DNA of 64,000 nucleotides, from assembly GCF_000745015.1 (NCBI RefSeq), contig NZ_JQNA01000001.1, positions 1,302,001 through 1,366,000 of the forward strand. The letters are read 5' to 3'. The notes under the pieces are model-generated. The model was given only the letters and a program-made list of their open reading frames with translations, ran no database searches and was not told the DNA's origin. Below are positions 4,098-37,376 of the stretch, one piece after another. A program made the position numbers and the translations under genes. Source of the stretch: Burkholderia sp. 9120 (lineage in GTDB: Bacteria; Pseudomonadota; Gammaproteobacteria; Burkholderiales; Burkholderiaceae). Each line of letters starts with the position of its first letter. Positions within the stretch are counted from its first letter, which is position 1.

Positions 4098-5267
4098 GTG
4101 CGTCGTTCTCCCACCGCCTTTACCCGCAATCGCACACTGACCTTGCCGCGCATGGCCGCGCTGATGATGTCGGGCATGTGTGCCAGCGTGCAGACCGAAC
4201 TCGACGCGCTATTCGGCGCATTGGGTGAGCACGGCGCACGCAGCCGCGCCGTCAGTGCGCAGGCGTTCAGCAAGGCCCGACGCGGACTGTCGGCCGACCT
4301 GTTCGAACTGGCCCGCGCCCGCCTGATTTCGCTGGCTCGACCCCATATCGATTCGATGCGCTGGCACGGCCTGAGGCTGGTCGCCGCTGACGGCAGCCGC
4401 CTGCGCGTAGGCACGCGTCGCGGCCATGAACTGCGCGCTGATCACTACGCATTTGCACTGTTCCTGCCGGGAGCAGAACTGACCCTGCACGCCACGCTTC
4501 ATCCCGCTGACGGCGCCGAGCGGCAGATGCTGTTCGAAGCACTGGACGTGCTGCAGCCGCGTACCGATCTGCTGCTGCTCGATCGCGGCTACATCGGCAA
4601 CACGATGGTGGCGGCACTTGTACAACGCGAAATCCCGTTCTGCATGCGTGTCGATGCGCGTAACTGGAAATGTGTCAGCGCCTTTGCCCGCAGCGGTAAA
4701 GCCGAGCATGTGGTGACACTGGAGGCGCCTGGCGAGCAGGATGCCCGCGACTATGAACTGATGCGCAGGCCGACTACCGTACGCCTGATCCGGGACGTCA
4801 CCCCAAGCGGTCGCGTGCGTGTGCTGATGACCTCGCTGCTGGACAGCGAGCGTTACCCGGCTGCATCGTTCGGCGCGCTCTATCATCAGCGCTGGCGCGT
4901 CGAAGAAGCGTTCAAACGCCTGAAACACCGGCTGCGACTGGAAGCCGTCACGGGCCTCGATTACCTGGCATTGCAGCAGGACTTCGGCGCAAAAATCCTC
5001 GCTGACAATCTTTGCACATTGCTCAGCGAGCTTGATGCGCCGCACGATGACGGGCAAGCCAGCCGGCCTAACCGGGTGTACGCACTGGGCGCACTCAAGC
5101 CGATCCTCGGCGGGTGCCTGCTGCGTGTCCGACACTGCCTGGACCGCCTCGCCGCTGTGCTGGACGTGATCCGCCTGACCCGATGCCGGATACAGCCGTC
5201 ACGCTCTTATCCAAGACCACCCAGAAAAGCCAAGCCCCACTTCCATCTCGCGTACAAACTCGCTTGA
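4098..5267 (+). CDS. IS4-family DDE transposase, probably frameshifted at its N-terminus
   Basis: Catalytic Asp residues sit in AADGSRLRV (D98) and LLLLDRGYIG (D162). The IS4 signature Y-x2-R-x3-E-x6-K is perfect at Y262/R265/E269/K276 (YHQRWRVEEAFKRLK). The GTG at 4098 is the first usable start in this frame, but it lacks a ribosome-binding site, and about 20 typical N-terminal residues (EFSDFLLDPALADRV) are encoded in frame just upstream. An ATG at 4019 opens in another frame (MNSNTSVLAASG) and stops at once. A single-base change near 4045-4055 would join the two. The catalytic core is intact, but full-length protein may not be made. Confidence 0.9.
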   Translation: MRRSPTAFTRNRTLTLPRMAALMMSGMCASVQTELDALFGALGEHGARSRAVSAQAFSKARRGLSADLFELARARLISLARPHIDSMRWHGLRLVAADGSRLRVGTRRGHELRADHYAFALFLPGAELTLHATLHPADGAERQMLFEALDVLQPRTDLLLLDRGYIGNTMVAALVQREIPFCMRVDARNWKCVSAFARSGKAEHVVTLEAPGEQDARDYELMRRPTTVRLIRDVTPSGRVRVLMTSLLDSERYPAASFGALYHQRWRVEEAFKRLKHRLRLEAVTGLDYLALQQDFGAKILADNLCTLLSELDAPHDDGQASRPNRVYALGALKPILGGCLLRVRHCLDRLAAVLDVIRLTRCRIQPSRSYPRPPRKAKPHFHLAYKLA

Positions 5268-7610: not shown

Positions 7611-7814
7611 TTACAGCGGCTGGATATTCGCAGCCTGCTTGCCCTTCGGGCCGGCCTTGACTTCGAACGAGACGCGCTGGTTTTCCTTCAGCGACTTGAA
7701 GCCGTCCGCGCGAATCTCCGAGAAGTGCGCGAACAGATCTTCGCCACCCGAATCCGATGTGATGAAGCCAAAGCCCTTAGCATCGTTGAACCATTTGACG
7801 ATACCAGTTTCCAT
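7611..7814 (-). CDS. Cold-shock domain protein (CspA family)
   Basis: 67 residues, the usual length for a single cold-shock domain. It has RNP1 (KGFGFI) and RNP2 (DLFAHF) nucleic-acid-binding motifs and the typical opening [10 protein letters not shown]. It binds single-stranded RNA/DNA as an RNA chaperone. The gene stands alone, with a good terminator after it and a long AT-rich upstream region consistent with a long regulated 5' leader. Which csp paralogue this is, and whether it is cold-induced, cannot be told from the sequence. Confidence 0.95.
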
Positions 7815-8254
7815 GTTCCAGTTTCCCTCGAGGATTTATAAAAATCGGGCAATGCCCTCACGCTGAATATCACTGTCAAATTATCCGCCATGGATTATTT
7901 CTGACAACCCATCTGAAATCAGATCGGTTAGTGAATTCAGCTTTGCCGTTATACGGGGGACGAAGAATCGTCGTCAAGCAAATTTTTAATATTCGTTTAG
8001 CTTGCAACACGCTATGCGTAACGCAAATTCAATCGGCAATGTTTATCGCATATCTCAGTAAATACTGAATAATTTTCACGTCATTATTACTGACTTAACG
8101 GCGCGACATGCGAAATAGCGGGAAAAATTTCTGCACGACGCCCACTTATGTAACAAATGATATTTTTAGTAAGTGTTTTTCCGAGTTGTTGCGCCGCACT
8201 CGCATCAGCATCATTGAAAATAGTAAATGTTGTGATGCAGATCAGGAGAGTGCC
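7815..8254. other. Divergent intergenic region between csp and an 87-aa gene
   Basis: 440 AT-rich bases. The minus strand should hold the csp promoter and a long leader. The plus strand holds the ribosome-binding site (CAGGAG, 8244-8249) of the downstream gene. An in-frame extension of that gene back to 8108 exists but lacks a ribosome-binding site and has different composition, so I left it non-coding. Confidence 0.5.
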
Positions 8255-8518
8255 ATGTTGTTCAATGAAATCCGCCGGTTGGTCACGTGGCTCACGCAGT
8301 CGCACGTCAAGGCAACGGACGGTCAGTCCGAAGCTCACGCGGAAATGGCAGGCTCTTCCGCCTTTCAGTTCGATACTGTGTCTCCCGCCTGGCACGGCGA
8401 TCACTGGCAGAACCTGTTGTCGTCGCCCATGGACGCGCGCCGCTATGTCATGGAAGACTGGAGCGTGCCGGTCAGCGCCGAATGGGATCTGACTGACGGC
8501 GCAGCGCCCGCACACTAA
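8255..8518 (+). CDS. Hypothetical protein (87 aa)
   Basis: The start ATG at 8255 is set by AGGAG eight bases upstream. The product begins MLFNEIRRLVTWLTQSHVKA and ends in an acidic, Trp-containing tail (MEDWSVPVSAEWDLTDG). No signal peptide, membrane segment or known domain is visible. Codon use matches the neighbours, so it looks like a real resident gene of unknown function. A hairpin follows at 8557-8576, but its U tract lies on the opposite strand. Confidence 0.55.
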   Translation: MLFNEIRRLVTWLTQSHVKATDGQSEAHAEMAGSSAFQFDTVSPAWHGDHWQNLLSSPMDARRYVMEDWSVPVSAEWDLTDGAAPAH

Positions 8519-8548
8519 CCGGCGCACGCATCCGCACGCCGACAGGCG

Positions 8549-8632
8549 AAAAAAAAGCGCGACTGGGAAGTCGCGCCGACAAAGGTTTGGAGATCTTTTT
8601 CGTCAACGAAAAAGTCTGCTTCGAAAAGCAGA
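8549..8632 (-). ncRNA. Candidate small RNA with three hairpins
   Basis: Read on the minus strand, the transcript would open with TCTGCTT-TTCG-AAGCAGA (8632-8615, UUCG tetraloop). It continues directly into CTTTTTCG-TTGA-CGAAAAAG (8614-8595), then an unpaired ATCTCCAAACCTTTGTCG containing a CUCC anti-Shine-Dalgarno motif. It ends in GCGCGACT-TCCC-AGTCGCGC followed by eight U (8576-8549). A TATACT -10 box at 8644-8639 places the transcription start at the first hairpin. No protein gene precedes it on this strand, so the terminator is otherwise unexplained. Size is about 84 nt. The single-stranded CUCC suggests base-pairing with translation start sites; Hfq use is inference from the 3' U tract. 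Confidence 0.6.
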
Positions 8633-8638
8633 GATTTC

Positions 8639-8644
8639 AGTATA
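8639..8644 (-). promoter_or_regulatory. -10 box (TATACT) of the candidate sRNA
   Basis: It lies seven bases upstream of the first hairpin on the minus strand. No convincing TTGACA-like -35 box lies at 16-18 bases, so an activator or alternative sigma factor may be involved. Confidence 0.45.
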
Positions 8645-9048
8645 GCGGTTGAGAAGACGCCGATTATTTACACAATCAACAATCATCTATTTCATTCTCA
8701 ACAACAATCCTTTTTTACGAATTATCTCGTTGTTTTTTTGCATCGGTTACTGTCGCAAATGAGCAACGACAATCGCTTCGAACCGCTTTCCCCATTCCGC
8801 GAATAGCGCCGACAGCCTTTATCTATAAGGCTCGCGCGGCATTCACACATCGTTTCCAATTGCGTAATACTTTATTGCGCAATTCGGAATGTCCATGTCG
8901 CAAGCCGTCTCTCTACACTTTGCGTAACCGGAAACCAGCGCGTTTTTTATCGCGCGCATCTCACACGGATCACGCCTCTCGCAGCGGCCGCGTGAAGGTC
9001 TCCCTAAAGCCTGGGTTCAATGCCCACTCTCGCTCTCGGAGTTACAAA
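8645..9048. other. Upstream region of the porin gene
   Basis: 404 bases, AT-rich in the first half with several T runs. The last 190 bases precede the porin start. An in-frame extension of the porin to 8860 exists, but it would bury the signal peptide and lacks a ribosome-binding site. A long 5' untranslated leader is more likely, as is common for regulated porins. Confidence 0.5.
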
Positions 9049-10200
9049 ATGATGAAGAAGACACTCATGGTCGCTGCCCTCACGGGCGTTTTTGCAACGG
9101 CTGCGCAAGCTCAAAGCAGCGTCACGCTGTACGGCTTGATCGACGCCGGCATTACTTATACGAACAACCAGCACGGCCATAGCAACTGGCAGGAAACCAG
9201 CGGTTCGGTGAACGGCAGCCGTTGGGGCCTGCGCGGCGCTGAAGATCTGGGTGGCGGTCTCAAGGCCATCTTCACGTTGGAAAATGGCTTCGGCATCAAT
9301 GACGGCACGCTGAAGCAAGGCGGTCGCGAATTCGGCCGTCAAGCGTTCGTCGGTCTCGCGAGCGACCAGTTCGGCGCTGTCACGCTCGGCCGTCAATACG
9401 ACAGCATGGTCGACTACGTCGGCCCGCTGGCACTGACCGGTACGCAATACGGCGGCACGCAGTTCGCGCACCCGTTCGACAACGACAACCTGAACAACTC
9501 GTTTCGTGTGAACAACTCGGTCAAGTATCAGAGCGTGAACTACGGCGGCTTCAAGTTCGGCGCGTTGTACGGTTTCTCGAACCAGGCTGACGGCTTCGCG
9601 AACAACCGCGCGTATAGCGCCGGCGCGTCGTACAACTGGGGCGGCCTGAACGTCGCTGCCGCTTACCTGCAACTGAACAGCAACGGCGCGACCGGCGCAG
9701 CGGCTGCGTTCAACTCGGGCGGCGCGGTGTCGAGCGACAACACGTTCTTTGCTGGCCGCCAGCAAACGTGGGGCGCGGGTGCGAACTACGCGTTCGGCCC
9801 GGCAACGGTCGGCCTCGTGTACTCGCAAACCAACCTGTCGGGTCTGGCTGGCATCGGCGCGGGTGCGTCGGGTCAATCGGCTGGTATCGGCGGCTTCGGC
9901 GGCGACAGCGCTCACTTCCAGAACTTTGAAGCGAACGCCCGTTATGCTCTGACGCCGGCAGTGAGCATCGCCGGTTCCTACACGTACACCAAGGCAAGCC
10001 TGGCCGGTACGCGTCCGCACTGGAACCAGTTCAACCTGCAAACCGCGTACGCGCTGTCCAAGCGTACCGACGTGTACCTGCAAGGCGAATACCAGCAAGT
10101 CAACGACGGCGCGATCGTCGACGCCGACATCAACGGTCTGGCAGCTTCGGGCAACAACAAGCAAGTGGCTGTCACTGCCGGTCTGCGTCACCGCTTCTAA
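9049..10200 (+). CDS. Outer-membrane porin (Neisseria/Burkholderia general porin family)
   Basis: 383 residues from ATG 9049, preceded by CGGAG. A 20-residue signal peptide (MMKKTLMVAALTGVFATAAQ, cut after AQA) leads into the family hallmark SSVTLYGLIDAGI, then SRWGLRGAEDLGGGLKAIF and FGRQAFVGLAS-QFGAVTLGRQ. The chain ends in VTAGLRHRF, the terminal Phe used for outer-membrane assembly. It should form a 16-stranded trimeric diffusion channel. It is a single gene with a strong terminator. The candidate sRNA on the opposite strand about 400 bases upstream could be related to porin control, but that is speculation. Confidence 0.95.
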   Translation: MMKKTLMVAALTGVFATAAQAQSSVTLYGLIDAGITYTNNQHGHSNWQETSGSVNGSRWGLRGAEDLGGGLKAIFTLENGFGINDGTLKQGGREFGRQAFVGLASDQFGAVTLGRQYDSMVDYVGPLALTGTQYGGTQFAHPFDNDNLNNSFRVNNSVKYQSVNYGGFKFGALYGFSNQADGFANNRAYSAGASYNWGGLNVAAAYLQLNSNGATGAAAAFNSGGAVSSDNTFFAGRQQTWGAGANYAFGPATVGLVYSQTNLSGLAGIGAGASGQSAGIGGFGGDSAHFQNFEANARYALTPAVSIAGSYTYTKASLAGTRPHWNQFNLQTAYALSKRTDVYLQGEYQQVNDGAIVDADINGLAASGNNKQVAVTAGLRHRF

Positions 10201-36966: not shown

Positions 36967-36971
36967 ACGCG

Positions 36972-36996
36972 AAAAACCAGCGTCAGTTGGCGCTGG
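36972..36996 (-). terminator. Terminator-like hairpin, minus strand
   Basis: CCAGCG-(CCAACTGA)-CGCTGG is followed by TTTTT on the minus strand. No annotated minus gene ends here, so it would end an unannotated transcript from 37,000-37,180. Confidence 0.5.
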
Positions 36997-37376
36997 CGAG
37001 GACTTCAGTAAGGCCGTCAGATACCGTGCAGGGGTTCGGTAAACGGTGACGCGTTGCGTCTAAAGGGACCGGGGGCAGTGGTAAAAAGGTTCACGCCCTG
37101 CAACCAATGTGGACGGATTCTATGCAGGGTTTTATAGATCGTCAACACTATAGACGGGCAAAAGTATAACTAATTGTAATAATGAACAGTGTTCAGTCGG
37201 TCAAGAACCGCGCAGCATGCGCCTTTTGAGCCATCTCAAATGAGTTCCTCTACCCAGGCCGTTCGGCTGAGCTACGTGCGCTAGTCAACGCAGGTAAAAT
37301 CGACAATCGTTTTGGAGCGGTAGCAGCCTGCCGCGCCCTTCCTTCCCGCCGCTCGCGCGGCACTGAACCGCACCAG

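Follow-up and report, generated by a model that had tools for sequence, protein, structure and literature searches.

The minus strand of the window, the 64,000-nucleotide stretch of DNA analyzed here, carries an orthologue of NcS25, a small RNA (sRNA) characterized in Burkholderia cenocepacia. The genome looks Paraburkholderia-like, and the sRNA, through its unpaired linker and hairpin 2, would block the Shine-Dalgarno (SD) sequence and start codon of a distant porin mRNA, the counterpart of BCAL3473. The probability of this reading is put at about 0.95. The sRNA is not new, being already known from an Rfam entry and published papers. What the analysis adds is the place of a characterized regulator in this genome, together with a concrete predicted target.

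Identity and Distribution of the sRNA

An Rfam scan (cmscan) matches RF02869 (ncS025, "Burkholderia sRNA 25") to window positions 8632-8548 of the minus strand at 114 bits, against a cut-off of 46. The match exceeds the gathering threshold and covers positions 1-85 of the 85 in the model. This full-length match agrees with the original prediction of a minus-strand sRNA (~80-90 nt) that ends in its own terminator, and the sequence fits the published 84-85 nt. The description of the sRNA as unannotated does not hold, since Rfam already lists it as RF02869 and it is also in print. NcS25 first came to light through dRNA-seq of B. cenocepacia biofilms, and a deletion mutant of that species identified its Northern band (PMC5688073). 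It is reported as conserved in Burkholderia, Paraburkholderia, and Pandoraea, with the same gene order as in the window (PMC10117139).

The genome holds a single copy of ncS25 and 46 porin matches. Among genomes of the same family, RF02869 is present in 219 of 398 at E <= 0.001 (209 above the cut-off; 8 of 25 genera), and an order-wide draw finds it in 4 of 300, every one from this family, with the window's genome among the four; both searches used stricter filters, which lose some weak matches. RF02869 is found in none of 14 control genomes, and a plasmid collection searched with 8500-8760 yields no match. Second matches below the threshold (33-37 bits) occur in G065, G157, G317, and G397 and may reflect chance or decayed or divergent paralogues. 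A porin encoded here shares 99% identity with one from Paraburkholderia bryophila, and the genus is therefore taken to be Paraburkholderia.

Structure and Conservation

The sRNA comprises three hairpins and a linker:

8548-8632, minus strand: whole match to NcS25 (RF02869 ncS025), 114 bits by cmscan; 84-85 nt, the published length
8615-8632, minus strand: hairpin 1, 7 bp, loop UUCG; from the fold, with 4 of 7 pairs changed on both sides and 89.5% of cells paired
8595-8614, minus strand: hairpin 2, 8 bp, loop UUGA; from the fold, with 3 of 8 pairs changed on both sides and 92.5% paired
8578-8594, minus strand: linker, unpaired in the fold and in the Rfam consensus
8587-8595, minus strand: anti-SD seed GAUCUCCAA, made up of linker bases and the final base of hairpin 2, a 9-nt perfect match to UUGGAGAUC in the leader of the porin on contig C1 (the C1 porin)
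8549-8577, minus strand: terminator, hairpin 3 (9 bp) plus eight U; from the fold and a terminator scan, with 5 of 9 pairs changed on both sides and 95.4% paired

Hairpin 1 (8632-8615) is formed by UCUGCUU-UUCG-AAGCAGA and hairpin 2 (8614-8595) by CUUUUUCG-UUGA-CGAAAAAG; the 5' arm of the latter, CUUUUUCG, can pair with the target start AUGAAAAAG in the predicted duplex. The 17-nt linker AUCUCCAAACCUUUGUC (8594-8578) contains AUCUCCAAACC. It is unpaired, in keeping with the free CUCC anti-SD segment first proposed, and finds its 9-nt perfect SD match in the C1 porin leader. Hairpin 3 (8577-8556), GGCGCGACU-UCCC-AGUCGCGCU, has 9 bp, counting one outer G-U pair, and runs into a tract of eight U (8556-8549). 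Three perfect stems of 7, 8, and 8 bp had been described; the first two are as stated, the third is 9 bp long with one G-U, and the eight terminal U are present. The UUCG loop is also present, but because its closing pair is U-A it is not of the extra-stable C(UUCG)G type.

The fold has a minimum free energy of -29.7 kcal/mol (z -4.27), equaled or bettered in 1 of 200 dinucleotide shuffles. Three terminator-like sites, hairpin 3 among them, occur in the 1.1 kb of 8000-9100, versus 1.4 by chance, and a consensus promoter scan of 8000-9100 returns no minus-strand promoter; the case therefore leans on the family match and on conservation.

Conservation was followed in 63 loci (L001-L031, L035-L064, L095, and L096) out of the 219 matching genomes, a sample that is not random because L002-L031 are top-scoring and L035-L064 were picked for weak or double matches. 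Excluding the incomplete locus L061, the remaining 62 loci contain 39 distinct sRNAs. Covariation, the check proposed in the original prediction, supports the three stems. In a MAFFT alignment made without reference to the structure, 92.8% of cells in the stems are paired, against 40-53% in slid controls, and both sides have changed in 12 of 24 pairs, against a shuffle mean of 6.3, with 12 reached in 1 of 500 shuffles; the sequences are related, and these figures therefore overstate independence. The majority of single-sequence folds retain the three hairpins, and several divergent sRNAs (e.g., L046, L055-L057, L060, and L062) adopt a different fold in hairpins 1 or 2. The structural trait of NcS25, three hairpins with an unpaired linker, is found both in the fold and by covariation over the 39 distinct sequences. 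Across the 62 loci, conservation peaks over the sRNA and drops sharply past its 3' end. Hairpins 1 and 2, the linker, and the -10 box are kept and most flanks are not, the reverse of the pattern (unconserved stems between conserved flanks) that would speak against an sRNA.

Predicted Pairing with a Distant Porin mRNA

In B. cenocepacia, NcS25 represses the distant porin BCAL3473 (383 residues) by pairing with the SD region of its mRNA (PMC10117139). Deletion of ncS25 raises BCAL3473 83-fold in planktonic cells and 27-fold in biofilms; the effect is complemented by native NcS25 but not by seed-mutated NcS25, and a translational reporter registers a small NcS25 effect (PMC10117139). The substrates of BCAL3473 in B. 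cenocepacia are arginine, tyrosine, tyramine, and putrescine.

The likely counterpart of BCAL3473 in this genome is the C1 porin, whose ATG lies at G000:C1:1869898; the assignment is based on length, on pairing, and on how closely the protein resembles those of Burkholderia species, rather than on the locus tag. Proteins of 383 or 385 residues from several species of the Burkholderia cepacia complex are 73-76% identical to the C1 porin. The pattern GGAGATN{3,14}ATGAAAAAG has three matches in the 8.46 Mb genome, and all three precede porins, which is partly family resemblance because porins often begin with ATGAAAAAG; the looser pattern TTGGAGAYN{3,14}ATGAAA has 8 matches. The match at C1:1869886 reads CCTTGGAGATCATTCG-ATGAAAAAGTCG and belongs to the C1 porin. 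The SD of this porin, UUGGAGAUC, pairs perfectly with the sRNA linker over 9 nt, where at least 7 nt would be expected for a BCAL3473 counterpart, here assigned by similarity. Downstream, AUGAAAAAGUC pairs with GACUUUUUCGU, a segment that takes in the end of hairpin 1 as well as the 5' arm of hairpin 2. The duplex, as predicted, joins sRNA 17-46 to mRNA -14 to +11, an extent similar to that of the published NcS25-BCAL3473 duplex, -14 to +16 (PMC10117139).

Pairing energies were obtained by a simplified calculation, in local windows with the opening costs of both RNAs, for 45 of the 46 porins (L088 has no start by the rule); start codons were chosen by rule, and some look wrong (e.g., L107 and L108). 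The C1 porin gives a hybrid of -29.0, the strongest among the best 45 of 83 rows, and a net energy of -10.6 kcal/mol after opening both RNAs, which places it 8th of the 45 porins scored.

By this account, which carries over what is shown in B. cenocepacia, NcS25 would be transcribed independently and end at hairpin 3. Its exposed linker would bind the SD in the mRNA of a porin encoded at another locus, in this genome the C1 porin, and the duplex would reach over the AUGAAAAAG start region as far as hairpin 2, whose 5' arm would take part. Ribosome-binding site and start codon would thereby be hidden, stopping translation and lowering the mRNA. Further porins of this genome are predicted as possible pairing targets.

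A broader reading, compatible with the preferred one, is that the linker hits the SDs of several porins here, with the BCAL3473 counterpart as just one among many. Seven porins (L076, L074, L078, L102, L065, L086, and L082) surpass the C1 porin in net energy, among them:

G000:C2:2341297-2342262: L076 porin, net -15.5 kcal/mol; pairing inside the coding sequence, +8 to +23
C2:1397287-1398246: L074 porin, net -14.1 kcal/mol
C2:5708271-5709275: L078 porin, net -12.5 kcal/mol

The mean net energy is -6.0 kcal/mol for porins versus -2.9 kcal/mol for 38 open reading frames (ORFs) of the window, but the porin scores are not independent, because porins share similar leaders and starts, and the 38-ORF control is crude, with uncertain starts and the adjacent porin included. 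The top 100 CopraRNA predictions in Burkholderia include 14 porin genes (PMC10117139). However, BCAL3473 was the one responder among five porins tested in B. cenocepacia: the adjacent porin BCAL3008 and three other predicted porins were unchanged on ncS25 deletion, as was nagE (PMC10117139). A multi-porin regulator in this genome is thus conceivable but somewhat improbable.

The Target Site in Relatives

Returning to the C1 porin as the likely target, the best 80 of its 305 relatives carry GGAGAT (78), TTGGAGA (71), and TTGGAGATC (68) before the start, and 70 of these 80 start with ATGAAAAAG. Taken alone, these conserved leader motifs are weak evidence, because most of the relatives kept are Paraburkholderia, where the leader bases around them are likewise conserved.

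When the porin protein is used to search 18 genomes, 12 show a porin that begins ATGAARAAGTCGCTT. It ranks fourth by score in G017 and second in G031. Among the one or two top porin matches per genome, no counterpart is recognizable in five sRNA-bearing genomes (G013, G044, G097, G130, and G285) or in G060, which is also absent from the 219 RF02869-matching genomes. With wobbles allowed, 13 of 13 sRNA-porin pairs (the 12 genomes and the window's own) have a continuous SD duplex 8-10 nt long; the porins were picked by a start signature that overlaps the pairing site in part and leaves out the SD, except for the G017 porin, which was picked by the SD pattern. In two genomes, a change on one RNA is matched on the other: G150 has the linker AUCUCCAU and the SD AUGGAGAU, and G078 has GUCUCCAAA and UUUGGAGAC. 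An SD pair turns into G-U in three g11 genomes. Net energies over the 13 pairs range from -7.2 (G090) to -22.2 (G031). For the g11 genomes G048, G101, and G031, the best predicted duplex falls on the start-codon region (-7 to +20) and leaves the SD uncovered.

Neighboring Genes

Three genes flank the sRNA:

9049-10200, plus strand: divergent adjacent porin, counterpart of BCAL3008 by position; Pfam PF13609 (4.9e-54), homologue in 61 of 63 loci, net pairing energy -5.2
8255-8518, plus strand: convergent hypothetical protein, 87 aa, without a Pfam family; homologue in 54 of 63 loci
7611-7814, minus strand: CspA-like cold-shock protein, 67 aa; Pfam PF00313 (3.4e-29), homologue in 53 of 63 loci

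The sRNA therefore lies between the hypothetical protein and porin genes with the cold-shock gene beyond, which is the published gene order of NcS25. Wherever homologues of the three neighbors are found within 1,500-base flanks of the 63 loci, their orientation and side are constant. The porin is the only one of the three in six loci (L055, L056, L057, L059, L061, and L062, of which L061 is incomplete), and all three are absent from the flanks of L063. The divergent porin gene has conserved blocks at 8857-8922, in its leader or promoter region, and among them is an imperfect inverted repeat, TTGCGTAATACTTTATTGCGCAA.

The location upstream of a porin gene had been taken to recall porin-regulating sRNAs, an idea that succeeds for the class of target and fails for the neighboring gene. 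Repression of the adjacent porin would suit the porin homologue beside ncS25 in 61 of 63 loci and the argument that sRNAs often share circuits with their neighbors (PMC10117139). However, BCAL3008 is unchanged in the ncS25 deletion mutant (PMC10117139), and the best site in the window is a 7-bp pairing of sRNA 49-55 with the start-codon region at a net -5.2 kcal/mol (-5.4 from the first ATG). Given the published BCAL3008 data and this poor predicted pairing, the adjacent porin is rejected as a target, and such repression is highly unlikely. Even less credible is that the locus is nothing more than a terminator or 3' region belonging to the convergent hypothetical gene, or a set of chance hairpins: the terminator is described as shared and bidirectional (PMC10117139) and the terminator scan alone is near chance, but on the plus strand the sequence after the stem (8548-8577) is CGACAAAGG, which lacks a U tract, hairpins 1 and 2, the linker, and the -10 box are conserved where most flanks are not, and the Northern band of the orthologue is lost on deletion (PMC5688073).

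Promoter and Upstream Boxes

Upstream of NcS25, four elements are conserved over the 62 loci:

8639-8644, minus strand: -10 hexamer TATACT, 1.7-2.0 bits per base
8663-8666, minus strand: TAAT box, -34 to -31, at the position expected for a -35 element; putative function
8679-8691, minus strand: box AATAGATGATTGT, -59 to -47, putative regulator site
8702-8708, minus strand: box ATTGTTG, -76 to -70, putative regulator site

TATACT is near-invariant and lies at 8644-8639, six bases before stem 1 where 7 had been stated. Across the loci, the -59 to -47 box reads AATAGATG.TTGT. No TTGACA-like -35 element stands out over the 62 loci, and the boxes at 8663-8708 possibly form a site for a regulator. 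Within this genome, the full arrangement of boxes occurs at the ncS25 locus only, and a 14-base box with at most one mismatch occurs 4 times versus 5 for the reversed control; with counts at control level and a single arrangement, no wider regulon is found. No mention of the boxes was found in passages of the main text of PMC10117139. The 167 nt upstream of ncS25 on the published complementation plasmid (PMC10117139) would include them. The boxes offer a lead on the control of NcS25, on whose expression published accounts differ: the 2023 study calls it constitutive (PMC10117139), and the 2017 study reports 2- to 8-fold changes in three conditions (PMC5688073). A speculative extension, more doubtful than not, is that a -35-less promoter is switched by a regulator through the -76 to -31 boxes and that NcS25 tunes a set of porins in porin-rich Paraburkholderia. 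If true, NcS25 would be a porin-regulon hub.

Relation to Other Bacterial sRNAs

The sRNA and NcS25 of B. cenocepacia are alike in sequence, the three hairpins, linker, length, gene order, and complementarity to the SD and start of a distant porin. They differ in genus, and expression and target were measured in B. cenocepacia and are predicted from sequence here. MicC, MicF, OmrA/B, and RybB are enterobacterial porin sRNAs that pair in trans at ribosome-binding sites or starts, and the enterobacterial porin sRNAs have Rfam models. At the gathering threshold, no model other than RF02869 is reported for 8400-8800, the enterobacterial porin sRNAs included. NcS25 is like them in mode, trans pairing at the ribosome-binding sites or starts of porin mRNAs (a general statement in PMC10117139), but no relation is seen: only RF02869 is matched, a family found in 0 of 14 control genomes. 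The double-hairpin CU-rich Burkholderia sRNAs of RF02278 (e.g., NcS27) likewise combine hairpins with unpaired CU-rich anti-SD stretches (PMC5688073), but they form a separate Rfam family, with none reported at 8400-8800.

Elsewhere in the window, a 389-aa ORF at 4098-5267 has the look of an IS4-type transposase, an impression from its sequence. Another known Burkholderia sRNA, RF02422 (Bp1_738), is matched at full length at 36970-37179 with 212.6 bits.
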